Assembly: GCA_030642205.1 (NCBI GenBank)
Contig: DAOWOF010000002.1
Coordinates: 1-47,171 of the forward strand
From: Desulfobacteraceae bacterium
GTDB lineage: Bacteria; Desulfobacterota; DSM-4660; Desulfatiglandales; Desulfatiglandaceae
Reading direction: 5' to 3'
DNA: 47,171 nt
How positions within the stretch are numbered: the stretch's first letter is position 1; each line of letters opens with the position of its first letter. This document shows positions 6,905 through 38,746 of this stretch, one piece after another. The notes under the pieces were generated by a model. The model searched no databases. It was given only the letters and a program-made list of their open reading frames with translations, and was not told the DNA's origin. Both the position numbers and the translations under genes were made by a program.

Positions 6905-8257
6905 CTACCGGCTTTGCAGTTCTTTTCTTAAATTTGTCATGGTTAAATCTTCAAATAAAAAATCTGAACATCCTGAGTAGGTAAACTGTACCCATGTTGA
7001 ATGCCTGCGGATAATATCAATAGCGTAGTCATTATACATTGTGTAAAACCATTCCTTGCACCTTCCCTGGGTAATTAACTGGATAATCCAGTCTCTTCCC
7101 TTTATGTCTCTATCAACTGAATAACACGCGGCGTACAAGATTGGGTCCAGGTATAGGACCATCTCCGACATATTAACAGGGTTTTTATACTGAGCCTTGA
7201 TTACATATGTATTCCTGCGCTGATAATACTGGTCATTTCCATTCATATAACCTTTAAGGGTATGATAACAATGACTATGCCCAATAATGGGTATTAGCAG
7301 CTCCTTTCTGCCAAGGAATGTCCAGTTAAAGCGAGTCACATTCCCTTCAAAACCTTCGGTATTATCAAAAGTAAAATCCAGTCCTCCAGGATACCTGTCC
7401 TGGTGTTGGGCAGTGGACATTCTCCGAACTCGTCTTATGGAAGGGATATAGATCCATAAATCATCATCTCTATTATAATTATAACGGTAGTACAGGGTTA
7501 TTGTTCCCCTCAGATTATATGGCGCAATATAGGAAACATTATACAAGAAATCCGTACGAGTGGGGTTAGGCGTATACAGGCCATTATTAGTATTTTCATT
7601 CTCTCTTAATCTGCCGCTCATTTGCAAGCGTTTGCTAAGAATCAGGTTGTGGCGCGAATGTGCCCTGCGATCCTTTGTTGACAAGCTCATTGGCACATAT
7701 CTGTCATTATCCTGAAATCGTTTATAATAATTCCAGACCAACTTTTCTGCTACACGAGGATCATTCTTTGGATCAATAACAGGAAAGGGAATTCCGTATC
7801 GATAGTTTATGAGCCATCCTTCTTCATCCAGTGAAACTTCTTTTTTATTTCTCTCGGTTTGGGCCATAAACGTTTCCCAATAATGCCCTCTTGGCTTAAC
7901 TGGTTCCCAGGCAGTCTCATTTATCCGAAATGTGCCCCATATTTCAGGATGCGTATACATTTCATAATGAGGAGCAGGCATAAGGTCCTTAATTTCTTTA
8001 AAAGGCCTTGCCTTATAACCCCAGGAACCAAGGATTGTCTGGTTTTCAGTGATTTGATTATAACCTCCTCTTGGAGCCCTGCATAATAATTTCCCCTGGT
8101 CCCATCCCTGTATATCTTGAGCAATTTCCCGATCGACCAACCAATCAGGATCATGCTCCATACCTTTTACTCTATATTCAACAGCCCCTGCAGGCAGATT
8201 CAACAAACAAACCAAGAGAGAGGAAACAAGACAAAATAACAAAGTTTTAATTTTCAT
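6905..8257 (-). CDS. DUF1329 domain-containing protein (paralogue of 5110..6459)
   Basis: Collinear, highly similar to the neighbouring protein throughout; signal peptide. Confidence 0.8.
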   Translation of the reverse strand: MKIKTLLFCLVSSLLVCLLNLPAGAVEYRVKGMEHDPDWLVDREIAQDIQGWDQGKLLCRAPRGGYNQITENQTILGSWGYKARPFKEIKDLMPAPHYEMYTHPEIWGTFRINETAWEPVKPRGHYWETFMAQTERNKKEVSLDEEGWLINYRYGIPFPVIDPKNDPRVAEKLVWNYYKRFQDNDRYVPMSLSTKDRRAHSRHNLILSKRLQMSGRLRENENTNNGLYTPNPTRTDFLYNVSYIAPYNLRGTITLYYRYNYNRDDDLWIYIPSIRRVRRMSTAQHQDRYPGGLDFTFDNTEGFEGNVTRFNWTFLGRKELLIPIIGHSHCYHTLKGYMNGNDQYYQRRNTYVIKAQYKNPVNMSEMVLYLDPILYAACYSVDRDIKGRDWIIQLITQGRCKEWFYTMYNDYAIDIIRRHSTWVQFTYSGCSDFLFEDLTMTNLRKELQSR

Positions 8258-14000: not shown

Positions 14001-14564
14001 ATGAAGATTGCTTTAAGCGCCAGCCAAAAAGATCTTGACTCCACTATTGATCCACGCTTTGGCAGATGCGCATATTTTTTGATAATCAATCCGGATGATA
14101 TGAGTTTTGATTGTTTTGAAAACGAAAGCGCTAATCTGGGTGGTGGCGCAGGTATTCAGGCAGCTCAATTTGTTGTCTCCCATGGAGCGACTGTTGTTAT
14201 TACCGGTAATATGGGGCCCAATGCCGTTAATGCCCTTAGTTCAGCAGGCGTAGAGATTATAACCGGTATCAATGGCTCGATTAAAACAGCAGTAGAACAA
14301 TATATAAAAGGTAATTTTGATAACACTGTTGAACCCAATGTTCCGGAACATCATGGAATAAACAGTCCTCAGGGGACAGGAGCCGACATGGGGACAGGAG
14401 CTGGCATGGGTACAGGTAGAGGAATGGGCGGAGGTAGAGGAATAGGAGGCGGAGGTAGAGGAATGGGTGGTGGTGGAGGTAAAGGAATGGGCGGTGGCAG
14501 TGGCATGGGCGGCGGCAGAGGAATGGGTGGAGGTGGTAGAGGCGGAAGGAAATCCAGCAGATGA
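14001..14564 (+). CDS. NifB/NifX (ORP-like) family protein with Gly/Met/Arg-rich tail
   Basis: DPRFGRCAYFLIIN, GGGAGIQAAQFVVSHGATVVITGNMGPNA; low-complexity GMGGGRG tail. Confidence 0.88.
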   Translation: MKIALSASQKDLDSTIDPRFGRCAYFLIINPDDMSFDCFENESANLGGGAGIQAAQFVVSHGATVVITGNMGPNAVNALSSAGVEIITGINGSIKTAVEQYIKGNFDNTVEPNVPEHHGINSPQGTGADMGTGAGMGTGRGMGGGRGIGGGGRGMGGGGGKGMGGGSGMGGGRGMGGGGRGGRKSSR

Positions 14565-17712: not shown

Positions 17713-18747
17713 ATGCAACAAAAAGGAATCGGGATTACAATCACACAACATATATTAAACCAGCAAAGGGAAAATCCTGAGGCCACGGGGGCATTTACTA
17801 CTCTTCTCACGGAGCTTCTTGTAGCGGGCAAGGTTATTTCAAGAGAAGTAAACAAGGCTGGTTTGGTTGATATACTAGGCGATACAGGAAAGATTAATGT
17901 TCAGGATGAAGAGGTTCAGAAGCTTGATTTATTTGCCAATCAAGTAATAATCCAGCGTATGCAGCATATTGGCCAGCTTTGTTGCATGGGTTCCGAGGAA
18001 GATCCTGAACTCATTAGAATTCCATCTGATTATCCGAAAGGTAATTATATCCTCCTCTTTGATCCTTTGGATGGTTCATCCAATATTGATGTTAATATAA
18101 GTATTGGCACAATTTTTGGCATTTACAGGATAAAGGATTCAGATCATAAGGGAAACCCCACTATAAAGGATGTCCTTCAACCTGGAATAGAGCAGGTCGC
18201 GGCCGGCTACTTCATCTATGGTTCAAGCACTATCATGGTATATACTACAGGAAAGGGGACAGGTGTTCACGGTTTCACCCTCTTTCCAAGTGTAGGCGAG
18301 TTCCTCCTTTCGCATAAAGATATCCGGATTCCTTCAAGGGGTAAGATTTATAGCGTTAATGAGAGTTATGTTCATTATTGGGATAATAAAACCAAGGCCC
18401 TTATTGAATATTTCAAAACCAGAGATAAAGAGACCTCCCGACCTTATACCGCCAGGTATGTTGGAAGCCTGGTAGCCGATTTTCATCGAAATCTTTTAAA
18501 GGGCGGCATATTTATGTATCCAGCCGACCAAAAGGATCCCAAGAAACCAACAGGGAAATTAAGATTGATGGTTGAGGCCAATCCTTTGGCCATGGTAGCC
18601 AGGGAGGCTGGAGGGTATGCCAGCGATGGTCATGGCCCGATTCTGGACATAAGTCCCACAGCCTTACACCAACGGGTTCCCCTCTATATAGGCAGTAAAG
18701 AGGATGTATTACTGGCAGAATCATTTATTAGCGGCAAAAGGAGCTAG
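17713..18747 (+). CDS. fbp: class 1 fructose-1,6-bisphosphatase
   Basis: FDPLDGSSNIDVNISIGTIFGIYR, YVGSLVADFHRNLLKGGIFMYP, KLRLMVEANPLAMVAREAGG. Confidence 0.96.
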   Translation: MQQKGIGITITQHILNQQRENPEATGAFTTLLTELLVAGKVISREVNKAGLVDILGDTGKINVQDEEVQKLDLFANQVIIQRMQHIGQLCCMGSEEDPELIRIPSDYPKGNYILLFDPLDGSSNIDVNISIGTIFGIYRIKDSDHKGNPTIKDVLQPGIEQVAAGYFIYGSSTIMVYTTGKGTGVHGFTLFPSVGEFLLSHKDIRIPSRGKIYSVNESYVHYWDNKTKALIEYFKTRDKETSRPYTARYVGSLVADFHRNLLKGGIFMYPADQKDPKKPTGKLRLMVEANPLAMVAREAGGYASDGHGPILDISPTALHQRVPLYIGSKEDVLLAESFISGKRS

Positions 18748-19715
18748 GATGATAACATCTCAATAAAAGTTTCAATCCTGAGGCCTGTCCGGCCATCAAT
18801 ACAACCAGGCCTGTCTCCTTCCAGGGTTAGTATTGGGATTCCAAGTTTTTCCTTTAACAGAATATCGTAAAGCTGTCTAAAACAAAAAGTCTGGGTGTAA
18901 TGAATCAGACCATCCAGTTCTCGTTCTCTGACAGCCTTTTTGATATCCTGAATCCTGCCATGGATACCATAGGGATAGGTATAGGCAAGGTAGAGATCAA
19001 TGATATCATGGTGATCAAAGGGCAAACTAAACTGTCTTTGTACTTCATTAAATACAATCCTGGAACCTTTGGATTCAATGAATTCATAGAATTGATTAAA
19101 GATAGGAGGCACTCCCAGGTAACCAAGTCGCACATTTTCTTTAAAAGGAGTTCTTTGGCTAATCTCTATTAAAAATTGATCCAAATTATGATCAAAGGCC
19201 TCGGGGTCGCCATTAAAATCAGAACTGCTTACCATAAAAAGATGGTTTTCCAGACCTGTGACAATATTTTCACGGTAGGTTAATTCGTCTATTTTTCTTA
19301 ATTTTTTTCGGATCCTGGCCAGGCGATTTTTGGTTTCCTCAATCGCCATCCAGGTTGTATTTAGCCTTTCCCTCAATTTATCCATCTGGAACAGGAGAGA
19401 CTCTCTTTTACGCTCAAAGGGGTATTGAAAAGGGATTATTTCCACTCCTTTATTTTCCAGTAATTCGCTCATGGCAATCGTATTGCTGCAATCACCTCCT
19501 GTTACAGCAATAACCTTTTTTATATCATGGTTAATAACAGTAGAATAGATTCCCTTGATCCATGAGCATATACTAGGTGCAAAGCCAGATAACTCTGCCT
19601 GATTAATTAAATCAGCAGGGCTGGATGAAGTGATAAAGAGATTATTTAAGTCAATCGGCTTTTGGCCAGCCGCGAAGACGATCTCTACAGGAATGGTTGT
19701 TGTAATTCCAATCAA
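18744..19715 (-). CDS. 2-hydroxyacyl-CoA dehydratase D-component family protein
   Basis: ITTTIPVEIVFAAG, VTGGDCSNT, YTQTFCFRQ, PILTLEGDRPG. Confidence 0.85.
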   Translation of the reverse strand: MIGITTTIPVEIVFAAGQKPIDLNNLFITSSSPADLINQAELSGFAPSICSWIKGIYSTVINHDIKKVIAVTGGDCSNTIAMSELLENKGVEIIPFQYPFERKRESLLFQMDKLRERLNTTWMAIEETKNRLARIRKKLRKIDELTYRENIVTGLENHLFMVSSSDFNGDPEAFDHNLDQFLIEISQRTPFKENVRLGYLGVPPIFNQFYEFIESKGSRIVFNEVQRQFSLPFDHHDIIDLYLAYTYPYGIHGRIQDIKKAVRERELDGLIHYTQTFCFRQLYDILLKEKLGIPILTLEGDRPGCIDGRTGLRIETFIEMLSS

Positions 19716-20395
19716 CGAGGGGCCTCAACAGAATGAAACCGCATTTCCGGAATTTCAAGACAAGTTAATTTATTTCCATAGACAGCTCCAGTATCAATGC
19801 CTATTTTATTATCCATGATACATGGTTCCTTGAATGGTGTATGCCCGTATATAACCTTTTTCCCAAAATTATATTTACTATAAATAAATAGATCGCGGAT
19901 CCAGAGCATATCCAGGTGTGTTTGCTTTGTTATTGAAATATTTGGTTTGAAACCGGCATGAACTATATAATAATCATCCAGTTCCAGAAATAATCTCAAA
20001 CCCTTAAAAAACTTGAGGTGATCTTCAGGCGCTTCCTCTTCATTATCCGGATTATCTTTCCTATAGCTTTTTATAGTTTGCTCCCCTCCATTTACAATAA
20101 ATCTTGAACGATTTCTGTTTGCCAGATAATCAAGAAACATCATTTCATGATTTCCCATAAGAAAATCAACCTGGGGGGATATATCTGCCAGTTCGAGCAA
20201 AAAGTTCACAACACCTTTGGCGTCTTCTCCCCTGTCAATATAGTCGCCTAAAAAAATAAGGCGATCCTGATGCGGCTGCCATGAAATTTTATCAATTAAC
20301 CTCTTTAGCATATTGAGACAACCATGGATATCTCCTATGATAAAGGTCTTTCCCTTGTTCATTAAATTCCAAACATTAGCCTTGGTCCCTGTCAC
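19712..20395 (-). CDS. metallophosphoesterase (PPP/Ap4A-hydrolase-like)
   Basis: GDIHGCLNML, FLGDYIDRGEDAKGV, LMGNHEMM, YGHTPF. Confidence 0.9.
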   Translation of the reverse strand: MTGTKANVWNLMNKGKTFIIGDIHGCLNMLKRLIDKISWQPHQDRLIFLGDYIDRGEDAKGVVNFLLELADISPQVDFLMGNHEMMFLDYLANRNRSRFIVNGGEQTIKSYRKDNPDNEEEAPEDHLKFFKGLRLFLELDDYYIVHAGFKPNISITKQTHLDMLWIRDLFIYSKYNFGKKVIYGHTPFKEPCIMDNKIGIDTGAVYGNKLTCLEIPEMRFHSVEAPR

Positions 20396-21291
20396 GAATC
20401 AAGTCTGGTTAAACCTATTTTTCTGGCCGTCAGAATGGCATCCTGATATTCTTTGATAGTCAGCCGCCGGCCAATCATTTTATCTGTATTTGCTGTCCCA
20501 CAAGGCCTGTATTGGCCCATAATATTAATATAAGTATCCATAGAAATTTCATTTTTGATAAATCGCAAGATATTTTCTATACTGGATACATCATTAGGCA
20601 TAACCAGATGCCTTAACAATATTCCCCTGGCGGCAATTCCTTTATCATCCAGGACAAGATCCCCTACCTGGCGATGCATCTCCCTGACAGCCTCAATTGC
20701 AACTTCCCTGTAGTCAGATGCCTTACAGTATTTTTCAGACATCTTATGGTCCCAGAACTTGAAATCAGGCATATAGATATCAAAAATTCCATCAAGCAAC
20801 TGTAAGGTCTCTATTGAATCATATCCACTGGAATTATAGAGCAGGGGAAGATCAAGGCCTTGCTCAATAGCTAAAACAAGGGCCTCTATTATCTGTGGAA
20901 CCACATGGGTTGGAGTAACAAAATTGATATTATGGCACTTATATCTATTTGCAAGAACAAGAATAATTGAGGCTATTTGTTCCGGTTCCAGTTCAGAACC
21001 TTGTCCATTACAGCTAATATCATAGTTTTGGCAAAAACTACAACGGAGGTTACAGTAACTAAAGAAAATGGTTCCGGATCCGTATTCTCCTGTCAACGGA
21101 GCCTCTTCTCCAAAATGGGGACTATAACTGGCAATCCTGGCCTTCCGGCCTGTACGGCAATAACCTGTTTCACCGGCAATGCGGTTAACACCGCAGTTTC
21201 GGGGACAGAGATGACAGTCCTCAAGTAAGCCCAAGGCCTTTTCCTTGAGAAGGATAAGGTCTGAATAATCAAGTTTAAGATAGGCTGGCAT
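20392..21291 (-). CDS. radical SAM protein (PflA-activase-like)
   Basis: FFSYCNLRCSFCQNYDIS (CxxxCxxC), CHLCPRNCGVNR, MGQYRPCGTA. Confidence 0.9.
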   Translation of the reverse strand: MPAYLKLDYSDLILLKEKALGLLEDCHLCPRNCGVNRIAGETGYCRTGRKARIASYSPHFGEEAPLTGEYGSGTIFFSYCNLRCSFCQNYDISCNGQGSELEPEQIASIILVLANRYKCHNINFVTPTHVVPQIIEALVLAIEQGLDLPLLYNSSGYDSIETLQLLDGIFDIYMPDFKFWDHKMSEKYCKASDYREVAIEAVREMHRQVGDLVLDDKGIAARGILLRHLVMPNDVSSIENILRFIKNEISMDTYINIMGQYRPCGTANTDKMIGRRLTIKEYQDAILTARKIGLTRLDS

Positions 21292-21309: not shown

Positions 21310-22011
21310 CTAATCCCGACTTACTCCCATTATTCTGAGAAAAAACAAGAAAAGATTAATAAAATCAAGATAAAGTGATAGCGCTCCTAAAATCGCGCCT
21401 TTTCTAATAGCGCCTCCATCAAGATCCCTGGGTTGAGTAAGGGCCATATTCTTTATTTTTTGTGTATCATAAGCGGTTAAGCCTACAAATATAAAGACTC
21501 CGATGTAGGATATCATCATAGACAGCATAGTACTGTTCAGGAACATATTTACAATAGTAGCAATAATAATCCCGATAAGACCCATTATTAAAAAACCACC
21601 AAAGGAGGTTAGATCTTTTTTTGTAACCCAACCATAAATACTGCAAGCAATGAATGTTCCGGCACAAACAAAAAAAGTACTCGCAATAGAGGTGCTGGTA
21701 TAGATAATAAATATAAATGAGAGGGTAATTCCGTTTAATGCCGCATAAATGACAAAAAGTGAGGTCGCAGTGGCTGAACTCATTCGATTCACCATACCGC
21801 TAATAGCGAAGACCAGACCTAATTCAGCAATAACAAGAAATATTAATAGAATAGGATTACTGAAAAAATGCAGCAACGCAGGATTACTGGAAACATAAAA
21901 AGCCACAAAACCGGTTAAACCGAGACCAATGGCCATCCAGTTGTAAACACTTCTAACAAAATTATTTACTATTACACTTGTTTGTGCGCTGGTGGTGGAT
22001 ATTTGAGCCAT
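21310..22011 (-). CDS. Bax inhibitor-1/YccA family membrane protein
   Basis: Seven hydrophobic segments, VGLTAYDTQKIK, GALSLYLDFINLFLFFLRI. Confidence 0.9.
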   Translation of the reverse strand: MAQISTTSAQTSVIVNNFVRSVYNWMAIGLGLTGFVAFYVSSNPALLHFFSNPILLIFLVIAELGLVFAISGMVNRMSSATATSLFVIYAALNGITLSFIFIIYTSTSIASTFFVCAGTFIACSIYGWVTKKDLTSFGGFLIMGLIGIIIATIVNMFLNSTMLSMMISYIGVFIFVGLTAYDTQKIKNMALTQPRDLDGGAIRKGAILGALSLYLDFINLFLFFLRIMGVSRD

Positions 22012-22182
22012 AATATAAATTCCTCCCTAATTTGTATAATACAAAAAATGGCCAAAAATAATTATTTCCAGAAAAATCAAAAGAAAATACTATAGAATGT
22101 TATATCAATAAAGTTGTTCTAATTATATTATAATTTATTTCAGGAAAAATTCAACCTATAGGCAGTTAGAAAAGGAGTCCAT

Positions 22183-23406
22183 GTGAAGTCACAGAAACTA
22201 TACATTGCCATGGTCGGTTTACCTGCCAGAGGAAAATCGACTATTGCCAGAAAACTTAAAGAGCATCTTACTAAGGATACAATCAAAACCAGAATATTTA
22301 ATAATGGTGACCTTAGACGTAAGCTAACCGGAGAAAATACATCCCACCCTGAGTTTTATGATTCTGCAAACACTCAAGGAATGGCCTTAAGAGAAAAAAT
22401 AGCTCATATCAATTGCCTAAACGCAAAAAGATATCTTCACACAAATGGGAATATAGCAATATTAGATGCAACAAATTGCAGCTATCAAAGGAGAAAAAAG
22501 CTTATTCATGAATTGACAGGTTATCCTATCCTGTTTATCGAATGTATCAATGATAATAAAGAGATACTAAAAGCAAGTATTCAAAGAAAAATATCAATGC
22601 CTGAATTTAAGCATCTAAAACAGGATGAGGCTATTAAGGGCTTTGAGCAGCGTATTATTTACTACAATCAGATTTATAAACCTCTCAAGAAGGAGGAAAA
22701 TTTTGTCAGACTGGATTCATTAAATAACCGTATTATAGAAGAGGAGATAAGTAATGGAATCCCTTATTATGATAGAATAAGAGATTTTTTGGTGAGTGAC
22801 GCAGTCAAAAATCTGTATTTAATTAGACATGGAGAGACCTATTTTAATCTGGAGAACAGGATTGGTGGCGATTCAGGTCTGACCATAAATGGAATATCCC
22901 AATCCAGGGCCCTGTCTCAATATTTTATCAGTAAAAAGATTCCCATTATTTTTACCAGCGAAAAAAAAAGGACAATCCAAACAGCTACGCCTATAAAAGA
23001 ATCACAAGAAAACAGCTTGATTATTCCAATTAAGGAATTTGATGAAATTGATTCGGGAATTTGTGAATGTATGACCTATAAGGAAATAAGGGCAAAGATG
23101 CCTCAAGTCTATTCAAACAGGAAAAAAGATAAATATAACTATATTTATCCGGAAGGTGAAGGATATGTTTCAATGAAAAAAAGAATAAATCATGGTATAA
23201 AAAAAGCTCTGTATCTAAGTGGCTACCCACAAACTATTATGATTATTGGTCATCAAGCTGTAAACAGAATGATTCTTTCTCATTTCCTTTTTCGGCGTGA
23301 GGAGGATGTTCCTTATACTTATATTCCTCAAGATAAATTTTACCATGTGGTGGCAACGCCAAATAAAAAACTTTTTCAACTTATAAAATATAATAGTCAA
23401 CCTTGA
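22183..23406 (+). CDS. bifunctional 6-phosphofructo-2-kinase/fructose-2,6-bisphosphatase-like protein
   Basis: GTG start with aaaggag SD; PFK-2 GLPARGKST, FNNGDLRR, LDATN; FBPase-2 LIRHGETYFNLENRIGGDSGL, EIDSGICECMTYKEI, YIYPEGEGY, IIGHQAVNR. Confidence 0.9.
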   Translation: MKSQKLYIAMVGLPARGKSTIARKLKEHLTKDTIKTRIFNNGDLRRKLTGENTSHPEFYDSANTQGMALREKIAHINCLNAKRYLHTNGNIAILDATNCSYQRRKKLIHELTGYPILFIECINDNKEILKASIQRKISMPEFKHLKQDEAIKGFEQRIIYYNQIYKPLKKEENFVRLDSLNNRIIEEEISNGIPYYDRIRDFLVSDAVKNLYLIRHGETYFNLENRIGGDSGLTINGISQSRALSQYFISKKIPIIFTSEKKRTIQTATPIKESQENSLIIPIKEFDEIDSGICECMTYKEIRAKMPQVYSNRKKDKYNYIYPEGEGYVSMKKRINHGIKKALYLSGYPQTIMIIGHQAVNRMILSHFLFRREEDVPYTYIPQDKFYHVVATPNKKLFQLIKYNSQP

Positions 23407-23434
23407 TGGACTCGTAAAAAGTCCATCAAGGTTG
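23398..23434 (+). terminator. perfect 15-bp stem-loop overlapping the stop codon of the PFK-2/FBPase-2 gene
   Basis: CAACCTTGATGGACT-cgtaaaa-AGTCCATCAAGGTTG. Confidence 0.6.
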
Positions 23435-23546
23435 ATTATCTTTTAAAGGAGATACCACTTTTAAAATTTTACATATATCGCGATTTCAGATACAATATAT
23501 TGTGTGTTTTTTTATGCCATAGCAACCTGTCGAGGTAGAATCTTTC

Positions 23547-27302: not shown

Positions 27303-28412
27303 CTATCCTTTCAATAAATCCTGGAGTGTATTAATATCATTCATAATTTCCTTTTTTAGTAACATTTCTTTTTTAACTCGTTTGACAGCATAAATAACAG
27401 TCGAATGATCTTTATTGCCAAATAATTTCCCTATCTGTCCAAAAGAGAGCATTGTATATTGTCTACTAAGATACATTGCAACTTGTCTTGGATAAGAGAA
27501 TGCTCTTTTCTTTTTATTTGATATAAGGTTGGAAAGAGATACATTAAAATGTTCTGCTACTACATTTTGAATGTATGAAACACTAATTTCTTTTAAAGAT
27601 CGATAAGTTAAGGCTGATTTGACTAAAGTTATATCTATTTTATTATTATTCATAGATGCTTTAGCTTCAATATTAATTAATGATTGGGTTAATTGCTTTA
27701 AATCATTGGTAGAATTTGAAAGAAAAAGAATGACATCACCAGGTATAATAAAATTGTCATTTTGGGCTAATTTTTTCAATATGTTAATTTTTATTTTTTG
27801 ACCAGGAACTTGGATTTCTGACAATAGACCACATTCTAAACGCGATTGAAACTGAGGTATAAACCCTTGAATTTTATTTGGAGTACTTGTTCCGGCCAAC
27901 ACAACCTGTTTATTTTGACTATAAAAAGAGTTAAAAAGAAGAATTAATTCTTCTTGTGTCTTTTTTTTTCCACTAAGTAAATGAATATCATCCATAAGAA
28001 GGATATCTAAGCTTAAATAGCTTTCCATGAATTTAGTAAGCTGGTTGTTTTTCTTTGCTATTGAAAATTTTTTAGAAAATGTATCAGCTAAAATATATTT
28101 TGATTTTAATAAAGGTTTTTCATTAGATATATAATTATATATAGCTTTCAATAAATGAGTTTTTCCAAGACTTAATCTAGAATATAAAAAAAGAGGGTTA
28201 TAAACCTTTGAAGGTTTAATGGCTACTTTCAAGGACGAAGAATATGCAAGATTATTGGTTTTGTCTATAATAAAATTATCAAAGTTCTGAATACGTTTAT
28301 CTTGATTGTCATGCTTATTAAAATTTAATTTCGTATCTTGATCCTCCTTTATTTCAGCATTTCTAATTGAAAAAGAAATTCTAGGTGAAATATTGATGTG
28401 ATCCTTAATCAT
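27303..28412 (-). CDS. DnaA-family replication initiator paralogue (AAA+ and domain IV)
   Basis: LGKTHLLKAIYNYIS, LDILLMDDIHLLSGKKKTQEEL, SRLECGLLSEIQVP, FGNKDHSTVIYAVKRV; domain IV motif present, Walker A altered. Confidence 0.85.
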   Translation of the reverse strand: MIKDHINISPRISFSIRNAEIKEDQDTKLNFNKHDNQDKRIQNFDNFIIDKTNNLAYSSSLKVAIKPSKVYNPLFLYSRLSLGKTHLLKAIYNYISNEKPLLKSKYILADTFSKKFSIAKKNNQLTKFMESYLSLDILLMDDIHLLSGKKKTQEELILLFNSFYSQNKQVVLAGTSTPNKIQGFIPQFQSRLECGLLSEIQVPGQKIKINILKKLAQNDNFIIPGDVILFLSNSTNDLKQLTQSLINIEAKASMNNNKIDITLVKSALTYRSLKEISVSYIQNVVAEHFNVSLSNLISNKKKRAFSYPRQVAMYLSRQYTMLSFGQIGKLFGNKDHSTVIYAVKRVKKEMLLKKEIMNDINTLQDLLKG

Positions 28413-29219: not shown

Positions 29220-29263
29220 GTAAATTGTTAGTAAATTGTTAGTAAATTGTTAGTAAATTGTTT
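29220..29263. repeat. 4 x 11-bp tandem repeat GTAAATTGTTA
   Basis: gtaaattgtta x3 + gtaaattgttt, ending 16 bp before the cooC ATG. Confidence 0.9.
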
Positions 29264-29279
29264 TTATATGGAGGACATT

Positions 29280-30023
29280 ATGGCTTATACTGTTGCTTTG
29301 GCAGGAAAAGGTGGGACTGGAAAAACAACTATGGCTGGTTTTTTAATTAAATTTTTTATCAGTAAAGGTAAGGCACCAGTGTTAGCTGTGGATGCGGATG
29401 CTAATGCAAATTTAAATGATATATTGGGTCTTGAAGTATATAAAACACTGGGTGATGCCAGAGACGATATGAAAAGAAATGTTTCCCAAGGCATGACCAA
29501 GGATGTTTTTATGGACATGCGATTACAAGAAGCTGTTATTGAAACAAAGGATTTTGATTTAATAGTAATGGGCCAACCTGAAGGAGCAGGATGCTATTGT
29601 GCTGCTAATACACTTTTAACACAATACCTGGATAAACTAATTGATAATTATAAATATGTAGTTATTGATAATGAAGCTGGAATGGAACATCTGAGTCGTC
29701 TGACAACAAATAATGTTGATGTTTTATTAATTATATCAGATTCAACCAGGAGAGGGATTAAGGCAGCGGCCAGAATTGTGGACCTAACAAATAAATTAAA
29801 CCTGAATATAAGTAAAAAATTGTTAATTGTTAATAGAGTAGAGGAAGATCAAAAGGACTTACTTGAAAAGGTTGCCATGGATTTTCAATTGGAGCTTATC
29901 GGTTTAGTACCTAAAGATAAAGAATTGGAAGAATATGATTTGCGTGGACAAGCTACTATTAATTTAGAAAATGATAATAAGGCTATTCAAACTGCGTTTG
30001 AAATTTTTGAAAAAATATTTTAA
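29280..30023 (+). CDS. cooC: CooC/AcsF-type nickel-insertion ATPase
   Basis: AYTVALAGKGGTGKTTMAGFLIKFF, GAGCYCAANTLL (CxC), IDNEAGMEHLSR; start at ATG 29280 with ggagg SD. Confidence 0.92.
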   Translation: MAYTVALAGKGGTGKTTMAGFLIKFFISKGKAPVLAVDADANANLNDILGLEVYKTLGDARDDMKRNVSQGMTKDVFMDMRLQEAVIETKDFDLIVMGQPEGAGCYCAANTLLTQYLDKLIDNYKYVVIDNEAGMEHLSRLTTNNVDVLLIISDSTRRGIKAAARIVDLTNKLNLNISKKLLIVNRVEEDQKDLLEKVAMDFQLELIGLVPKDKELEEYDLRGQATINLENDNKAIQTAFEIFEKIF

Positions 30024-30307
30024 ATTCACTGTGTACTATATCTTGTTATTATTGTTTTACGCTAACCACATCTTGTTCTTTTAAAAAAAAGAACTCTTTG
30101 GAATCCTTGTGAAAATCACTTGACAAGTTATTGTTTTTAATTTAAACATTTGATGTATTTATGAAAATAAGGAGTATTCTATACTAATTTGATTGTTCTT
30201 TTTTTCACAATTAAATTTTCTAAAAAAGAAACTTATTATATTACATTATTTAATTTCAAATGAAATATGTAACTTATTAATAAATCTAGATTAAGGAGGT
30301 ATAGGAA

Positions 30308-31855
30308 GTGGCCTTTAATATTCCTAAACAACCCTACGCAGGAATGATAGGGGAAACAACCCTTGGGAAGGGCGATTCTGCTCTTACTATGGGAGGTCAG
30401 AATACATACCCATTTCATCTATTTGAAGGAGAAACTCCAAATGCTCCTAAGATCGCAATGGAAGTATGGGATTATGATCCTTCAGAGGAATGGCCAGCAG
30501 CTGCGATAGAACCATTTAAGGATGTAATTGCCTCGCCTGATGCATGGGCCAAAAAAAATGTAGAAGAAAATGGTGCGGATATGATCGTGCTTCAGCTCAA
30601 AAGTACAGACCCTAATGGCCTTGACAGGGGAGCTGATGAGGCGGCAAAAGTCGCAAAAAAAGTTGCTGACGCTGTTGATGTGCCTTTAATATTATGGGGT
30701 ACAGCTAATAATAATAAAGATGAAGAAGTTCTAAAAAAAATATCAGAATTATGTGAAGGGATGAATGTTACTTTAGGACCAGTTGAAGAGGGTAATTATA
30801 AGGGTGTGGCTGCTAGTGCCATGGGTTATAACCATACAATAATTTCATCTTCGCCAATTGATGTTAATTTGGCAAAGCAGCTTAATATTCTTCTCACCAA
30901 TCTTGGTCTTAAATCAGATAAAATAATTAAAGATCCTACAACTGGCGGGCTAGGTTATGGCCTTGAATATAGTTATTCAGTCATGGAACGAATCCTGATG
31001 GCGGCCTTAACCCAGGAAGATGGTAAATTACAATTCCCAATGATAAATAATGTTGGTAATGAAGTCTGGAAATCTAAAGAGGCCAAGCAAACCATTGATG
31101 AGGCACCAACATCAGGTGATCCCGAGAAAAAGGGTATCATGATGGAGACTGTCGCGGCAGTTGCTTATCTTTTGGCTGGATCCAGTATTGTTATTCTCAG
31201 ACATCCGGAAAGTGTACGTCTGGTTCGTAGTTTTATTGATCTTATGATAAATGGCGGGTCTGCCGGGGATGTAGCTGGCATCAACAAGCTTCTGGACATT
31301 CAGGAAGCTGATTTAATAGCCCTTGCTCCTGAACCAAATCTGGAAATTCCTGAAGACAAGAAAGCTCCAAAGGCCAAAGCAGCTCCAAAGCAGGAAAAGA
31401 AAGCTGCGCCGGAGCCAAAGGTTGAAGAGGTAAAGGCGGCTCCTCCAAAACCTGCAGCAGAGCCAAAGACTGAAGTCAAGGTTGACGAAAAAGCTAAAGC
31501 AGAACTGGAAGCCAAAGCAAAAGCAGAAGCAGAACTTAAGGCTAAGGAAGAGGCTGAAACCAAAGCAGAAGCAGAAGCCAAAGCAAAAGTTGAACTGGAA
31601 GCCAAAGCAGAGGCAGAAGCCAAAGCAGCGGCAGAACTTAAAGCTAAAGCAGAGGCTAAAGCCAAGGCAGAAGAAATTGCCGGGCGAGATGCTGAAGAGG
31701 CAGATCTTCGTCAACAACGCGCCAAAGAAAAAGAAGATCTTGCTGCCAAAAGGGCGGCAACCACAAAGTCTAAAGCAGCAAAGACTGTATCATCGGTAAA
31801 GAAAACAAAACTAGAAAAAATGATGGGTAAATTAAATAAAAGGAATAAACGTTAG
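30308..31855 (+). CDS. acsD: CODH/ACS corrinoid Fe-S protein small (delta) subunit with Lys/Ala/Glu-rich C-terminal extension
   Basis: GTG start after aaggaggt; KIAMEVWDYDPSEEWP, DPTTGGLGYGLEYSYSVMERI; residues from about 345 on are KAE repeats. Confidence 0.93.
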   Translation: MAFNIPKQPYAGMIGETTLGKGDSALTMGGQNTYPFHLFEGETPNAPKIAMEVWDYDPSEEWPAAAIEPFKDVIASPDAWAKKNVEENGADMIVLQLKSTDPNGLDRGADEAAKVAKKVADAVDVPLILWGTANNNKDEEVLKKISELCEGMNVTLGPVEEGNYKGVAASAMGYNHTIISSSPIDVNLAKQLNILLTNLGLKSDKIIKDPTTGGLGYGLEYSYSVMERILMAALTQEDGKLQFPMINNVGNEVWKSKEAKQTIDEAPTSGDPEKKGIMMETVAAVAYLLAGSSIVILRHPESVRLVRSFIDLMINGGSAGDVAGINKLLDIQEADLIALAPEPNLEIPEDKKAPKAKAAPKQEKKAAPEPKVEEVKAAPPKPAAEPKTEVKVDEKAKAELEAKAKAEAELKAKEEAETKAEAEAKAKVELEAKAEAEAKAAAELKAKAEAKAKAEEIAGRDAEEADLRQQRAKEKEDLAAKRAATTKSKAAKTVSSVKKTKLEKMMGKLNKRNKR

Positions 31856-31994
31856 ATTGCCTGATAGACAGATTTGCCTTTTAAGAAAAAAACATCTTGG
31901 CAATACTTTTTTCTAAGAAGACGTACATGCATCTAACCTGCTGAAATGATGCCATTAAATTAATGGATCAGAATAATTATGAGGAGGAACCTCT

Positions 31995-34028
31995 ATGACA
32001 GAAGGAAAAGTAAAGGCAGTTAAACTGGAAAAGAAGCAAAAATTGGCTAATCCGGTTGAGGCTTCAATTGATATTGCATCACAGGAAATGATAGCTCAGG
32101 GCCAAAAACTGGGAGTGGAAACTATCTTTGACAGGGCAGTAAAAATGAAGCCCTGTAATATAGGCGTTCAGGGAACTTGTTGTAAAAACTGCTCTATGGG
32201 ACCATGCCGCCTTCCTCTTCCCAAGGGAGGAATAGAAGGTGAAGATGAAAGAAAAGGTCTTTGTGGGGCAACCGCAAATACAATAGCTGCACGAAATTTT
32301 ATCAGGATGATTGCCGGTGGAGCCGCGGCTCATTCAGATCATGGAAGATGTGTTGCGGAGGTCTTTCTGTCAGTTGCGCGAAAAGAAACAGATGCTTATG
32401 AAATTAAAGATTATGATAAATTATTAGCAGTGGCAGAATATCTGGGTGTAGAAACAACAGTAGAAATAGATGGCGAGATAGAAGATCGTGATCTGGATGA
32501 AGTTACTCTTGAAACGGCAGAAGCTGCTATAAATGAATGGGGTAAGCCTGAAGGGGAGCTCTTGACTCTCAAAAAGGCGCCGAAAGCCCGTTATGAGATA
32601 TGGAAAAAACAAGGCGTGTTGCCACGAAATATTGACAGAGAAATTGTTGAGATAATGCATCGTACCCATATGGGCGTTGATCAGGATTATAAAAACCTTA
32701 TCAAACAGGGCACCAGGGCAGCTATCGCAGATGGCTGGGGTGGTTCAATGCTGGCAACAGATATACAAGACATCCTTTTTGGCACACCATATCCTGTACA
32801 GTCAGAAGCTAATCTTGGCGTTATGAGAGAAGATCATGTTAATCTTATTGTTCATGGACATGAGCCTGTGTTGTCAGAGATGATAGTAGCAGTTGCAGAG
32901 ACACAGGAAATGATTGATTACGCAAAAACAAAAGGGGCCAAAGGCATTCAGTTAAGTGGGATATGTTGTACTGCCAATGAAATGCTTCAGCGTCACGGAA
33001 TTCCCCTGGCAGGCACATTTCTCCAGCAGGAACTGGCTATTATAACCGGAGCCTGTGATGCCATGGTGGTGGATATTCAATGTATTATGCAAAATCTTGC
33101 CAATGTAGCAAAATGTTTTCATACAAAACTGATAACAACTCACCCTATTGCCAAAATGGAGCAGGATAATGTTATTCATATTGAGTTTGATGAACATCAT
33201 GCACTGGAAGATGCCAAACGTATTGTAAAAATGGCTATTGATAATTTTGAAAAACGAGGCGCCGAGGTTATGATTCCTCAACATAAAGCGTCCGTAGTGG
33301 CCGGTTTTGGCGTTGAATCCATTGAATACCATCTTGGCGGGACTTTTCGTGGCACCTATTATACCTTGAATGATAATATAATAAATGGTCGTATTCGTGG
33401 TGTTGCCGGAGTTGTAGGCTGCAATAATGCGAGAACAAGACATAATGAGGGACATTTACTTGTTGTCAAGGAACTCATTAAAAATGATGTAATTGTTCTT
33501 ACAACCGGATGCACTGCCATTGCATGCGCGATGGAAGGTCTTCTAACGCCTGAAAGCGCTGCTGTTTATTGTGGTCCTGGACTTGCTGAGGTTTGTGAGA
33601 CGGTTGGTATTCCTCCTGTGCTTCATTTGGGCTCCTGTGTTGATAATAGCAGAATCCTCCTGGCAGCAACAGAAGTAATCAAGGCTGGTGGACTTGGAAA
33701 CGATATAAGTGATTTCCCTGTGGCTGGAAGCGCTCCTGAATGGATGAGTGAAAAGGCAATAAGTATTGGACATTATTTTGTTGTTTCTGGTGTATATACA
33801 GTTTTTGGCGTTACCTTGCCTACATCGGGAGCTCCTGTATTCCATAATTATATAACTAAGGAACTTGAAGATATTTATGGCGGGATGTGGGATGTCGAGA
33901 CTGATCCTATTAAACATGCCCATATGATGATTGCTCATATAGACAAGAAACGTAAAGAACTCGGTATTGACAGGGCAAGAGAGAGAGTTATGATGGACAT
34001 GGCAAGTCGCCAGGCCCTTGAAACATAA
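31995..34028 (+). CDS. cooS: Ni-containing carbon-monoxide dehydrogenase catalytic subunit
   Basis: VQGTCCKNCSMGPCRLP, GRCVAEVF, HGHEPVLSEMIV, GICCTANEMLQRHGIP, HLGSCVDNSR (acsA equivalent). Confidence 0.96.
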   Translation: MTEGKVKAVKLEKKQKLANPVEASIDIASQEMIAQGQKLGVETIFDRAVKMKPCNIGVQGTCCKNCSMGPCRLPLPKGGIEGEDERKGLCGATANTIAARNFIRMIAGGAAAHSDHGRCVAEVFLSVARKETDAYEIKDYDKLLAVAEYLGVETTVEIDGEIEDRDLDEVTLETAEAAINEWGKPEGELLTLKKAPKARYEIWKKQGVLPRNIDREIVEIMHRTHMGVDQDYKNLIKQGTRAAIADGWGGSMLATDIQDILFGTPYPVQSEANLGVMREDHVNLIVHGHEPVLSEMIVAVAETQEMIDYAKTKGAKGIQLSGICCTANEMLQRHGIPLAGTFLQQELAIITGACDAMVVDIQCIMQNLANVAKCFHTKLITTHPIAKMEQDNVIHIEFDEHHALEDAKRIVKMAIDNFEKRGAEVMIPQHKASVVAGFGVESIEYHLGGTFRGTYYTLNDNIINGRIRGVAGVVGCNNARTRHNEGHLLVVKELIKNDVIVLTTGCTAIACAMEGLLTPESAAVYCGPGLAEVCETVGIPPVLHLGSCVDNSRILLAATEVIKAGGLGNDISDFPVAGSAPEWMSEKAISIGHYFVVSGVYTVFGVTLPTSGAPVFHNYITKELEDIYGGMWDVETDPIKHAHMMIAHIDKKRKELGIDRARERVMMDMASRQALET

Positions 34029-34102
34029 TAGGATTAGATCAATAAAATCTATATTAATAACGAAATAATGGATTCAATAAATCCTCAACGAAGGAGGAAT
34101 AT

Positions 34103-36316
34103 ATGTCAAAATTAGTAGCATTTGCGGCCATTCAGGGCGGGTATAAGGTAGTGTCTAGCGTTGAAGGTGAGCTTAAAAAAGCCTTGGACACTTATGATGC
34201 CAGTACAAAAATCGGGTTTCCCAATACAGCTTATTATCTTCCTGTTATATATTCTCTTACCGGAATGAAATGTGAAACTCTGGAAGACTTGCTAATGCCT
34301 ATGGAATTTGCAAGGGGTTTATTACCGGCGCATGTTAAAAGCAGAAATCACCTGCCTTATCTGGGGCCTTTGCTGGATGCTGGTATGGCAGCGCTTTTTG
34401 CTTATGAAGTTAAAGAAGCAATCAGAATACTTAATGAGCCTGATTTTTATATACCACAGGAAGATCCTGATATTGAGGCGGGTAAAATATGGGTAGGACC
34501 GGCTGATGACACTATCCTGCGGAAAAGGGGCGTTGAGTTTGTTGATGGTTCAGCTCCCGGTTTTGCTGCGATAGTTGGTGCTGCGCCTGATATTGAAACC
34601 GCAAAAATGATAGTTGAAGATTACCAGAAAAAAAGTCTTTATATCTTTTGTGCGGCAAATCATAATGGAAAAACACTTACAGAGCAGTGTCTGGAAGCCG
34701 GTATGCAAATTGGCTGGAATACCAGGATTGTACCTTTTGGGCCTGATATTTCCTCTGCTATCTTTGCCCTTGGTTTTGCAAATCGTGCCGCAATGACATT
34801 TGGCGGTGTTGAACCTGGCGACTATAAAGCCATATTACATTATAATAAAAACCGTATATTTGCTTTTGTAAATGCCCTGGGAGATATTGGCACAGAATGG
34901 GCTGTTGCTGCTGCCGGTTGCGTAAATTGGGGCTTTCCTACTTTGGCTGATACAGATATACCTGAGATTTTACCTACAGGTCTCTGCACCTATGAGCATG
35001 TTGTAGCCAATGTGTCCCATGATGAAATTTGCCAGAGATCTGTTGAAGTAAGGGGTCTTAAGGTTACAATTTCTGAGATTGATATACCTTGTGCCTTTGG
35101 ACCGGCATTTGAGGGCGAGCGTGTCAGAGGTGCTGATCTTTACTGCCAGATGGGAGGTGGCAAGACTCAATGTACAGAGCTTGTAAAAATGGCAGAGATG
35201 AATGAAATCGAAGATGGCAAGGTCACAGTGGTTGGTCCTGATGTTGGAGATCTTAAAGAGGGAGATACTCTTCCTCTTGGTATATATGTGCAGGTAGCTG
35301 GACGGGAGTTTCAACCTGATTTTGAGCCGATTCTGGAACGCCAAATTCATCATATGACTAATTATATTCAATATATAATGCATATTGGACAGCGCAATAT
35401 CGCCTGGGTCAGAATTAGCAAGTCAGCGATTGAAAAAGGTTTTACATTAAAGGATATTGGCGTTGTTATACATGCTAAATACCATCAGGATTTTACAAAT
35501 ATTCTGGACAAGGTAGAGGTTACATTATATACAGAAAAAGCAGATGTTGATAAATTAACCAAGAGGGCGAAAGCGGAATATAAGACCAGGGATGAACGAG
35601 TTGAAAATATGACAGATGAGGATGTGGATACATATTATTCATGTACTCTTTGTCAGTCTTTTGCCCCTAACCATGTATGCAGTGTAAGCCCTGAAAGAAC
35701 AGGACTTTGCGGTGCATATAACTGGATGGATTGTAAGGCATCCTTTGATATTAATCCTACAGGGCCGAACCAACCTATTGAAAAGGGTGAATGTCTTGAT
35801 CCTGTGCTTGGGCAGTGGAAGGGTGTCAATGACTTTATATATAAAGCTTCCAAGGGTAATGTTACTCACTATAATTTTTATTCCATGATTATTGATCCAA
35901 TGACAACTTGTGGATGCTGTGAATGTATTGCAGCTGTATTACCTATTTGTAATGGTGTTATGACCGTTTCAAGAGAGTATACAGGCGAAACACCTTCAGG
36001 GATGAAATTTACAACTTTGGCTGGTGTTATGGGTGGAGGCGCTTCTTCACCTGGCTTTGTGGGCCATTCAAAATTTAATATTACTCAGGGAAAATTTATT
36101 GTTGGTGATGGTGGACTGCTTAGAATGGTTTGGATGCCAAAGATTCTTAAGGAAGAGATAAAAGAGAGGATTGAAAAACGAGGCGCAGAAATGGGTGTTC
36201 CTGATCTTTATGACAAGATTGCAGATGAGACAGTTGGAATTACCGAAGATGAAATAATGCCCTTTCTGGAGAAGGTGGGGCATCCTGCCTTGAAAATGGA
36301 TCCTATTACAGGATAA
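34103..36316 (+). CDS. acsB: acetyl-CoA synthase (CODH/ACS beta subunit)
   Basis: YSCTLCQSFAPNHVCSVSPERTGLCGAYNWMDCKASFDINPTGPNQP, TTCGCCECI, A-cluster cysteines. Confidence 0.97.
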   Translation: MSKLVAFAAIQGGYKVVSSVEGELKKALDTYDASTKIGFPNTAYYLPVIYSLTGMKCETLEDLLMPMEFARGLLPAHVKSRNHLPYLGPLLDAGMAALFAYEVKEAIRILNEPDFYIPQEDPDIEAGKIWVGPADDTILRKRGVEFVDGSAPGFAAIVGAAPDIETAKMIVEDYQKKSLYIFCAANHNGKTLTEQCLEAGMQIGWNTRIVPFGPDISSAIFALGFANRAAMTFGGVEPGDYKAILHYNKNRIFAFVNALGDIGTEWAVAAAGCVNWGFPTLADTDIPEILPTGLCTYEHVVANVSHDEICQRSVEVRGLKVTISEIDIPCAFGPAFEGERVRGADLYCQMGGGKTQCTELVKMAEMNEIEDGKVTVVGPDVGDLKEGDTLPLGIYVQVAGREFQPDFEPILERQIHHMTNYIQYIMHIGQRNIAWVRISKSAIEKGFTLKDIGVVIHAKYHQDFTNILDKVEVTLYTEKADVDKLTKRAKAEYKTRDERVENMTDEDVDTYYSCTLCQSFAPNHVCSVSPERTGLCGAYNWMDCKASFDINPTGPNQPIEKGECLDPVLGQWKGVNDFIYKASKGNVTHYNFYSMIIDPMTTCGCCECIAAVLPICNGVMTVSREYTGETPSGMKFTTLAGVMGGGASSPGFVGHSKFNITQGKFIVGDGGLLRMVWMPKILKEEIKERIEKRGAEMGVPDLYDKIADETVGITEDEIMPFLEKVGHPALKMDPITG

Positions 36317-36325
36317 TAGTTATAT

Positions 36326-36368
36326 TTTAAGCTTAGGTAATTGCTATAATTTATTACCTAAGCTTAAA
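36326..36368. other. perfect 16-bp inverted repeat between acsB and acsC
   Basis: TTTAAGCTTAGGTAAT-tgctataattt-ATTACCTAAGCTTAAA. Confidence 0.85.
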
Positions 36369-36463
36369 TAAAATTTCCTTAGGGATCGCCCAAAGCAGTG
36401 TTTATGAAATAAAAAGATAACTTTTTAAGTTATTTTTAGCGAACCCTTTTCGAGGAGTAAATT

Positions 36464-37807
36464 ATGGGACTATCTGGAATACAGATTTTTAAATTATTAC
36501 CAAAAACAAATTGTACTGAATGCGGGGTTCCTACCTGTCTGGCCTTTGCCATGAATTTGGCCTCGGGCAAGGCAGAATTAGATGCCTGTCCATATGTTTC
36601 AGATGAGGCTAGGGATCAGCTTAATGAAGCATCAGCGCCACCTATAAGACCGGTGGCTATTGGAGCTGGTGTGCGGGCGTTGAAGGTTGGTGGGGAGACG
36701 GTCATGTTCAGGCATGAAAAGACCTTTTATAACCCTACCGGTTTAGCTGCTCTTGTAAAATCAGATATAGCATTGGATGAGCTTGATACTAAGCTTAAAA
36801 CATGGAATGCCCTGCAGTATGAAAGGGTTGGCCTTAATTTAAGGCCGGAATTGGTTGCCCTAAAGGATGTTAATGGTGATAGTGCAGCTTTTGCGGCTGC
36901 AGCCGCAAAAATTTCAAAGGAAAGTGAATTTGGTATCATTTTGATGAGCGATAATATCGACGTTCTTAAGTCTGGCGTTGATGTGTGCACCTTTAAAAAA
37001 CCAATCTTGTATGCTGCAACCGCAGAGAATGCTGATGAGATGGGTAATCTTGCCAAGGAATCCGGGGCATCTTTAGCCATAAAGGCAGATAATATAGATG
37101 GGCTCATTGCTTTGAGTGATAAATTAGCAGGCATGGGTCTTAAAAATCTTATCCTTGATTCAGGCGCCAGGGAAATGAAGCAGCTGTTTACGGATCAGGT
37201 AGCCATCAGGAGGTCTGCCCTTAAAGATGCTAACCGTTCTTTAGGTTTTCCAACTATTACCTTTCCGTGCGAAATGGCCAGTAACCTTGAGGTGGAAACA
37301 GTAATAGCTTCCATGTTAATTGCGAAATATGCTGGGATTATAGTTCTTTCAGATTTTAAAGGTGAGTCTATTTTTCCATTATTATTAGAGCGACTTAATA
37401 TCTTCACAGATCCTCAGAGGCCAATGACTGTCACCGAAGGAATCTATGAAATTGGGAAGCCTGATGAAAATTCGCCGGTGCTTGTTACCACTAATTTTTC
37501 ATTAACATATTTTATAGTAAGTGGTGAAATTGAAGGCAGTCGTGTACCTACTTGGCTGCTTATTAAGGATACAGAAGGTTTGTCAGTTATGACAGCCTGG
37601 GCCGCTGGTAAATTTGCGGGTGATGAAGTTGGAGGTTTTGTTAAAAAGAGCGGGATTGCAGACAAGGTTGCGCATAAGAAAATAGTTATTCCCGGTTATG
37701 CTGCTTCAATTAGCGGAGAGATGGAAGAAGAGCTTTCAGGCTGGGAAATCCTGATAGGGCCAAGGGATGCTTCCTTGATTCCCAAGTTTCTTAAAGAAAT
37801 GGTATAA
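36464..37807 (+). CDS. acsC: CODH/ACS corrinoid Fe-S protein large (gamma) subunit
   Basis: FKLLPKTNCTECGVPTCLAFAMNLASGKAELDACPYV, C-terminal corrinoid domain VIPGYAASISGEMEEELSGWEILIGPRDA. Confidence 0.95.
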   Translation: MGLSGIQIFKLLPKTNCTECGVPTCLAFAMNLASGKAELDACPYVSDEARDQLNEASAPPIRPVAIGAGVRALKVGGETVMFRHEKTFYNPTGLAALVKSDIALDELDTKLKTWNALQYERVGLNLRPELVALKDVNGDSAAFAAAAAKISKESEFGIILMSDNIDVLKSGVDVCTFKKPILYAATAENADEMGNLAKESGASLAIKADNIDGLIALSDKLAGMGLKNLILDSGAREMKQLFTDQVAIRRSALKDANRSLGFPTITFPCEMASNLEVETVIASMLIAKYAGIIVLSDFKGESIFPLLLERLNIFTDPQRPMTVTEGIYEIGKPDENSPVLVTTNFSLTYFIVSGEIEGSRVPTWLLIKDTEGLSVMTAWAAGKFAGDEVGGFVKKSGIADKVAHKKIVIPGYAASISGEMEEELSGWEILIGPRDASLIPKFLKEMV

Positions 37808-37843
37808 TTATTTTTAGTCATCAACAAATAAGGGAGAGGATAT

Positions 37844-38746
37844 ATGTTATTAATTGGAGAAAACTTGAATGTTATTAATACTATTATAGGCAGGGCATTC
37901 AGGGAAAAAGATCCTGGACCTATTGCTGAGGAAGCTATTCGGCAGAAGGAAAAAGGGATGGATTGGATAGATATTAATTTAGGCCCTGCTAAAAAAGGTG
38001 GACCTGAGTTAATGGAATTTGTGGTAAAAACTGTTCAAGAAGCCATTGGTGATAGTATTCCTCTCTGTCTTGATACATCCAATATTGAGGCAATGGAAGC
38101 TGGTTTGGCTGTACATAAGGGAAAAGCTATTATTAATTCAATTATGGTAAGGGCCGAACGCTATGAAAAAATGATTCCTCTGGCAGTGAAATATAAGGCA
38201 TCCATGGTTGCCCTGATGTGGGGTCCGGATGGATTACCCAGAGATGAAAATGAGCGGGCTGCCTTGGCGGTAGAGCTTATGTATGCTGCCAATGAAGCAG
38301 GTGTTCCTAATGAAGACATGTTTTTTGATGGAATTGTAACACCTGTAAATATTCAGCAGCCTCAGTTAATGAGCCTCTTGGCCTTTCAGGAAATGTTGCA
38401 GGATATTGCTCCTGGTGCTAAATCCACATGCGGTCTTTCAAATATATCTAATGGCCCACCGGAAGAACTAAGGCCCATATTGAATACCGTATATATGGTA
38501 ATGCTTGAGAGAAAAGGTATGTATTCATGTATTGCTGATGCCTATGATGATAGTCTGGTGGCAGTAGCAAGAGGAAAAAGGCCAGATATCGTTGAGTTAG
38601 TTCACAAGGTTATGGATGGTAAAAATGTCGATGACAAATCTTTGCCTGAGGATCTAAATCATGGGTGGAAACTGGCTGACTATGTAAAGACTGCTCGCGT
38701 TATACTTGGGGAATCCCTTTATTCTGATTCCTGGTTAAAAATTTAA
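37844..38746 (+). CDS. acsE: methyltetrahydrofolate:corrinoid/Fe-S protein methyltransferase
   Basis: LLIGENLNVINTIIGRAF, MDWIDINLGPAKKGGPELM, STCGLSNISNGPP. Confidence 0.93.
   Translation: MLLIGENLNVINTIIGRAFREKDPGPIAEEAIRQKEKGMDWIDINLGPAKKGGPELMEFVVKTVQEAIGDSIPLCLDTSNIEAMEAGLAVHKGKAIINSIMVRAERYEKMIPLAVKYKASMVALMWGPDGLPRDENERAALAVELMYAANEAGVPNEDMFFDGIVTPVNIQQPQLMSLLAFQEMLQDIAPGAKSTCGLSNISNGPPEELRPILNTVYMVMLERKGMYSCIADAYDDSLVAVARGKRPDIVELVHKVMDGKNVDDKSLPEDLNHGWKLADYVKTARVILGESLYSDSWLKI

Follow-up and report, generated by a model that had tools for sequence, protein, structure and literature searches.

In animals, plants and fungi, a two-headed enzyme makes and destroys the signal fructose 2,6-bisphosphate (F2,6BP), and class-I fructose-1,6-bisphosphatase (FBPase) is inhibited by F2,6BP in eukaryotes. 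The 47,171-nt stretch of DNA analysed here (the window) encodes a protein for which a preliminary description proposed the same two activities, those of a bifunctional PFK-2/FBPase-2 (PFKFB). The locus raises the question of whether a bacterium may both make and break F2,6BP and, if so, which enzyme this metabolite would control. The open reading frame was found exactly where it had been described, and each of the motifs quoted for its product is present in the translation of 22183–23406. The gene and its features are as follows.

22183–23406, + strand: PFK-2/FBPase-2 open reading frame, 407 aa, GTG start
22172–22177, + strand: ribosome-binding site AAGGAG, 5 nt upstream of the GTG (from the sequence)
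22186–22743, + strand: kinase domain PFK-2, residues 2–187 (Pfam 6PF2K), with the Walker A motif GLPARGKS at residues 12–19
22813–23367, + strand: histidine-phosphatase domain FBPase-2, residues 211–395 (Pfam His_Phos_1), with RHG at residues 215–217, the catalytic Glu at 288 and the second His at 357
23397–23435, no strand assigned: inverted repeat of 17 pairs overlapping the 3' end of the PFKFB gene, terminator-like by pattern match only

Pfam places a 6PF2K domain (E=4e-38; 131.4 bits against a cut-off of 27) N-terminal to a histidine-phosphatase domain (His_Phos_1; E=1e-31; 110.5 bits, above the cut-off) on a single chain. When the PDB was searched by sequence, the top matches were PFKFB3, PFKFB4, PFKFB2 and PFKFB1 at about E=1e-59 to 1e-56, aligned from residue 6 or 7 to residue 383 or 389, followed by isolated FBPase-2 domains at about 1e-31. 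The alpha-ribazole and phosphoserine phosphatases aligned with the C-terminal half alone, at E=2e-10 or worse, and PFKFB was the best match for both halves of the protein. An AlphaFold2 model was built with a 22-row alignment of homologues (mean pLDDT 81.6), and every one of its 26 best PDB fold matches was a PFKFB. The global TM-score against PFKFB structures was about 0.5 with an rmsd of about 17; we read the low TM-score as a sign that the domains are placed differently, or uncertainly, with respect to one another.

For the active sites, 82 bacterial sequences were aligned with the chains of PFKFB3 and PFKFB4 (84 sequences, 378 columns). We checked 21 functional residue positions of the PFKFB crystal structures. 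These include the fructose-6-phosphate (F6P) contacts R82, R106, T134, R140, K176, R197 and Y201 (PFKFB1 numbering) and 12 residues of FBPase-2 covering the phosphohistidine, the acid Glu and the F2,6BP contacts. The window protein is identical to human PFKFB3 at all 21 positions, comprising the F6P contacts (7/7), the kinase catalytic residues (2/2) and the FBPase-2 residues (12/12). The Walker A lysine and the catalytic Asp of the kinase are the same as in PFKFB3 and invariant across the 82 bacterial copies. Overall, 18 of the 21 positions are invariant in all 84 sequences as compared with 45 of the 378 columns, and the hypergeometric P of about 7e-16 is indicative only because conserved residues cluster. 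Six of the seven F6P contacts are invariant in 82/82 bacterial copies, while the seventh, T134, is replaced by S, A or N in 13 of them; in the phosphatase half, Q395 is changed to R in 59 copies and Y340 to P in two. At a phosphatase-site position where human PFKFB3 has Ser and PFKFB4 has Arg, all 82 bacterial copies have Arg, which fits an active phosphatase.

Two further kinase positions depart from this pattern. C162 (PFKFB1 numbering) is found in mammalian kinase sites, although it is inessential for the reaction and not strictly a defining residue; it is Asn in the window protein and in 80 of the 82 bacterial copies, and this change may alter the kinetics of the kinase. The position of R138 is variable among the bacterial copies. 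Identity to human PFKFB3 is 36% overall, with 64/199 residues in the kinase half and 68/166 in the phosphatase half. With both Pfam domains present, PFKFB as the best PDB match and the F6P contacts complete, the bifunctional assignment is upheld. Judged by sequence, the window protein is confirmed as a full-length fused PFK-2/FBPase-2 in which both active sites appear intact, and its homology makes it very likely that it would catalyze both the synthesis and the hydrolysis of F2,6BP.

The distribution of this enzyme was examined by two approaches. A search with peptides of the window protein, which for that reason was restricted to close relatives, returned relatives at 40 loci with 55–80% identity over the best matched segment. 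These were from Desulfobacterota MAGs, strain NaphS2, and the anammox Brocadiaceae and Scalindua. A profile scan covered 396 genomes of Desulfobacterota, the phylum of the window. With a 6PF2K match above 100 bits defining a carrier, it detected PFKFB in 58 genomes (about 15%) and 10 of 108 families. The carrier frames are about 400 residues or more, bar one of 326 residues (G359). Every genome sampled from the window's own family (ten) and from its sister family (five) is a carrier. Among 246 genomes of the anammox phylum, the seed genome alone gave a match. No relatives were found among the viral contigs and plasmids searched, and carriage by a virus or plasmid was rejected on this ground. 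The earlier statement that such fusions are uncommon in bacteria does not agree with these frequencies. The bacterial PFK-2/FBPase-2 family is fairly widespread and long-established, and the window adds a member to a known family.

The comparison with eukaryotic PFKFB that the preliminary description had called for was made in a tree with two animal sequences (IQ-TREE quick search, support by SH-aLRT only). In this tree, 81 bacterial copies form a single clade separated from animal PFKFB by a long branch. Each of five families (f15, f21, f31, f40 and f63) makes up a single group, and members of the window's own family and of its sister family are interspersed among related MAGs. The anammox copies, four in number, cluster together with a support of 100, nested in a set with a support of 99 whose remaining rows come from the window's order and from deltaproteobacterial MAGs, as expected for transfer into anammox bacteria. 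The tree apparently reflects an old bacterial clade that was passed on to anammox Planctomycetota; with only two animal sequences, it does not inform on the direction of exchange with eukaryotes. One diverged copy (G350, locus L042), on a long branch and of unsure placement, falls beyond the main bacterial clade. This copy (G350:C17, 7022–8221, − strand) represents a second, diverged PFK-2/FBPase-2 type that keeps the C162 cysteine and has 34% identity to the window protein and 39% to human PFKFB3. The label "eukaryote-like in a bacterium" is therefore apt for the PFKFB architecture but not as a sign of oddity or recent transfer, given a deep bacterial clade and carriage by about 15% of the sampled genomes.

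Among known systems, mammalian PFKFB1–4 (2axn, 1bif, 1k6m) are the best matches by both sequence and fold, sharing with the window protein the two domains, their order, the Walker A motif, and the F6P-contact and phosphohistidine motifs. They differ from it in sequence (36% identity for human PFKFB3), in having C162 rather than Asn, and in lying across a long branch from the bacterial clade. The window protein, a bare catalytic core of 407 residues, lacks the regulatory extensions that animal PFKFB carries at both termini. Plant F2KP bears a long N-terminal extension. It has the same catalytic core and carries out the reactions predicted for the window enzyme (PMC12965863). Single-domain histidine phosphatases of the TIGAR, CobC and PspA types have the phosphatase fold and the RHG...H motif in common with the window protein but no kinase domain, and the CobC and PspA types match it far more weakly than PFKFB does (E of 2e-10 or worse). 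A PFK-2/FBPase-2 of Desulfovibrio desulfuricans, cited since 2004, is mentioned in PMC9721465 with reference to Rider et al. 2004. That enzyme comes from the same phylum and in all likelihood belongs to the same family; the window differs in its lineage, whose order has Desulfatiglandales-type relatives (NaphS2 is one), and in having its own FBPase-PFKFB block.

This block consists of the PFKFB gene and the following genes upstream of it.

17713–18747, + strand: class-I FBPase, the proposed F2,6BP target (NCBIfam NF006778)
18744–19715, − strand: 2-hydroxyacyl-CoA dehydratase D-component (HGD-D)/double-cubane-like protein, part of the conserved block
19712–20395, − strand: calcineurin-like (ApaH/PrpE-like) phosphoesterase, part of the conserved block
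20392–21291, − strand: radical SAM protein, part of the conserved block
21310–22011, − strand: Bax1-I family membrane protein, part of the conserved block and divergent neighbour of the PFKFB gene

A class-I FBPase had been placed about 3.4 kb from the PFKFB gene, and it is indeed encoded there, matching NF006778 at 475.6 bits (cut-off 368) and separated by a gap of 3.4 kb. Since four opposite-strand genes fill this gap, the two genes do not form one operon. Most loci of the window's order have the same arrangement, FBPase (+), HGD-D-like, metallophosphoesterase, radical SAM and Bax1-I (all on the opposite strand) and PFKFB (+). Of the 15 carriers in this order, 11 have FBPase and PFKFB on one strand with 3.3–5.4 kb between their starts; for the remaining four, two have contigs ending nearby, one has the genes 35 kb apart and one has them far apart. 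Beyond this order, FBPase and PFKFB genes are not neighbours. Two ferredoxin-bearing ParA-like ATPases are encoded upstream of the window FBPase, and an AI-2E-type transporter and a response regulator in relatives. In other families, same-strand neighbours read by eye vary by family and show no glycolytic theme, with examples such as 3-dehydroquinate-synthase-like, selenophosphate-synthetase-like and ABC-transport proteins; functional hints from them were rejected on this account.

Other features observed in the window are listed here.

5110–6459 and 6905–8257, − strand: adjoining, similar secreted-type proteins, the first matching DUF1329
14001–14564, + strand: dinitrogenase iron-molybdenum cofactor-type protein with a Gly/Met-rich tail
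27303–28412, − strand: DnaA-like protein of 369 aa, best NCBIfam match TIGR00362 at 314 bits, below the cut-off of 343.9; its N-terminal region is seemingly missing, as the match begins at profile position 86
29247–38746, + strand: CO dehydrogenase/acetyl-CoA synthase cluster near the FBPase-PFKFB block, with a CooC-like ATPase, CdhD, a Prismane-type CODH, ACS beta and apparent further subunits
30308–31855, + strand: CO dehydrogenase/acetyl-CoA synthase delta subunit, with the CdhD domain at residues 17–301 and a long Lys/Ala/Glu-rich C-terminal tail beyond the Pfam domain

We considered whether the gene might be something other than a working bacterial PFK-2/FBPase-2. The fused protein could act on another sugar or acid phosphate, its likeness to PFKFB being one of fold and mechanism only. 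P-loop kinases and histidine phosphatases shift substrate readily, alpha-ribazole and phosphoserine phosphatases also align with the C-terminal half, and both the change of C162 to Asn and the variable R138 position would be in keeping with such a shift. It is nonetheless improbable, as all seven F6P contacts and every checked FBPase-2 residue in the window protein are those of human PFKFB3, six of these contacts are invariant in 82/82 bacterial copies, and both halves, not one, are best matched by PFKFB. Still less likely is that the gene is a relic kept without a physiological role: its patchy distribution over the phylum would fit, but 82 diverged copies have kept their frames intact and their catalytic residues unchanged, which indicates continued selection. 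Least likely is that the gene came recently from a eukaryote or that eukaryotic DNA contaminates the assembly, even though PFKFB is best known in eukaryotes and the assembly containing the window is MAG-like, with 294 contigs. The gene lies inside a block conserved among relatives of the order, its close homologues are all from Desulfobacterota or anammox bacteria (about 68% full-length identity vs 36% to human), and the tree shows one deep bacterial clade, several of whose families are each a single group. A recent eukaryotic origin or contamination was rejected on gene order and the tree.

If the enzyme is a PFK-2/FBPase-2, class-I FBPase is a candidate target of its product. A class-I FBPase is encoded by 57 of the 58 carriers as compared with 177 of the 338 non-carriers (396 genomes), and the one carrier without it is an 80%-complete assembly. 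By genome, the Fisher P is 1e-13, which overstates the association because genomes within a family are not independent; the family-level P of 0.005 is fairer. The residues of FBPase that bind F2,6BP are N212, E213, R243, Y244, Y264 and K274 (pig numbering). Comparison with mammalian FBPase indicated that the window FBPase keeps the equivalents of all of them, a conservation that is not diagnostic of F2,6BP control because it occurs with or without PFKFB. In the AMP site of the window FBPase, Lys112 is replaced by Asn. Lys112 is replaced in most of the Desulfobacterota FBPases examined (L136–L175 and the window), carriers and non-carriers, and Arg140 is often Lys. These replacements suggest that AMP control of Desulfobacterota class-I FBPase may be weak regardless of PFKFB. 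Loss of the AMP site was rejected as a sign of takeover by F2,6BP since Lys112 is also lost where PFKFB is absent. The co-occurrence in 57 of 58 carriers and the conserved neighbourhood make FBPase the better-supported target by association, and its control by F2,6BP is plausible on that basis.

F2,6BP could instead be made and broken to act on a phosphofructokinase, namely a PPi-dependent PFK as in plants, and not on FBPase. F2,6BP activates the PPi-PFKs of plants (PMC12203962), and a PPi-type PFK (GGDD...PKTMDND) is present in all 14 other PFKFB carriers of the window's order. On the other hand, this PPi-PFK subfamily occurs in only 19 of the 58 carriers vs 57 for class-I FBPase, and was rejected as a universal partner for this reason. 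The window's own MAG (80.5% complete) has no PF00365 match, and a bacterial PPi-PFK, that of Clostridium thermocellum, was unresponsive to all 11 metabolites tried (PMC12203962). PFK of any kind is uninformative on the target because it is near-universal (361/396 genomes). A phosphofructokinase target in place of FBPase is a tentative alternative, with clearly lower odds. At locus L106, from position 1501, a PFK-superfamily protein was observed with GGFDN and PKTIDRD replacing GGDG/GGDD and TIDND in the active site.

We propose, with a probability of roughly 0.7, that the window encodes a bifunctional PFK-2/FBPase-2 that sets the level of F2,6BP, most likely to restrain class-I FBPase. Its N-terminal P-loop kinase would use ATP to phosphorylate fructose 6-phosphate at C2, yielding F2,6BP, and its C-terminal histidine phosphatase would strip the C2 phosphate through a phosphohistidine intermediate at His216, such that the balance of the two activities would determine the F2,6BP level. 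F2,6BP would then most likely bind to the active site of class-I FBPase and restrain it, which could let an anaerobe that has the CO-dehydrogenase/acetyl-CoA pathway alternate between gluconeogenesis and the use of hexoses. Phosphofructokinase may be a second target.

A 2026 preprint describes the control of PFK by F2,6BP as apparently confined to eukaryotes (PMC12873801). In the open-access literature searched, we found no biochemical test of a bacterial PFK-2/FBPase-2. The odds are about even that F2,6BP is a working regulatory metabolite in bacteria, in a system long kept by Desulfobacterota and passed to anammox Planctomycetota, where PFK-2/FBPase-2 would control class-I FBPase in gluconeogenic anaerobes. 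A bacterial PFK-2/FBPase-2 also bears on the question of where eukaryotic PFKFB originated. If our proposal is true, control by F2,6BP would not be specific to eukaryotes. A conserved bacterial enzyme that is linked to class-I FBPase through gene order and co-occurrence makes the claim of eukaryote specificity testable by ordinary enzyme assays.
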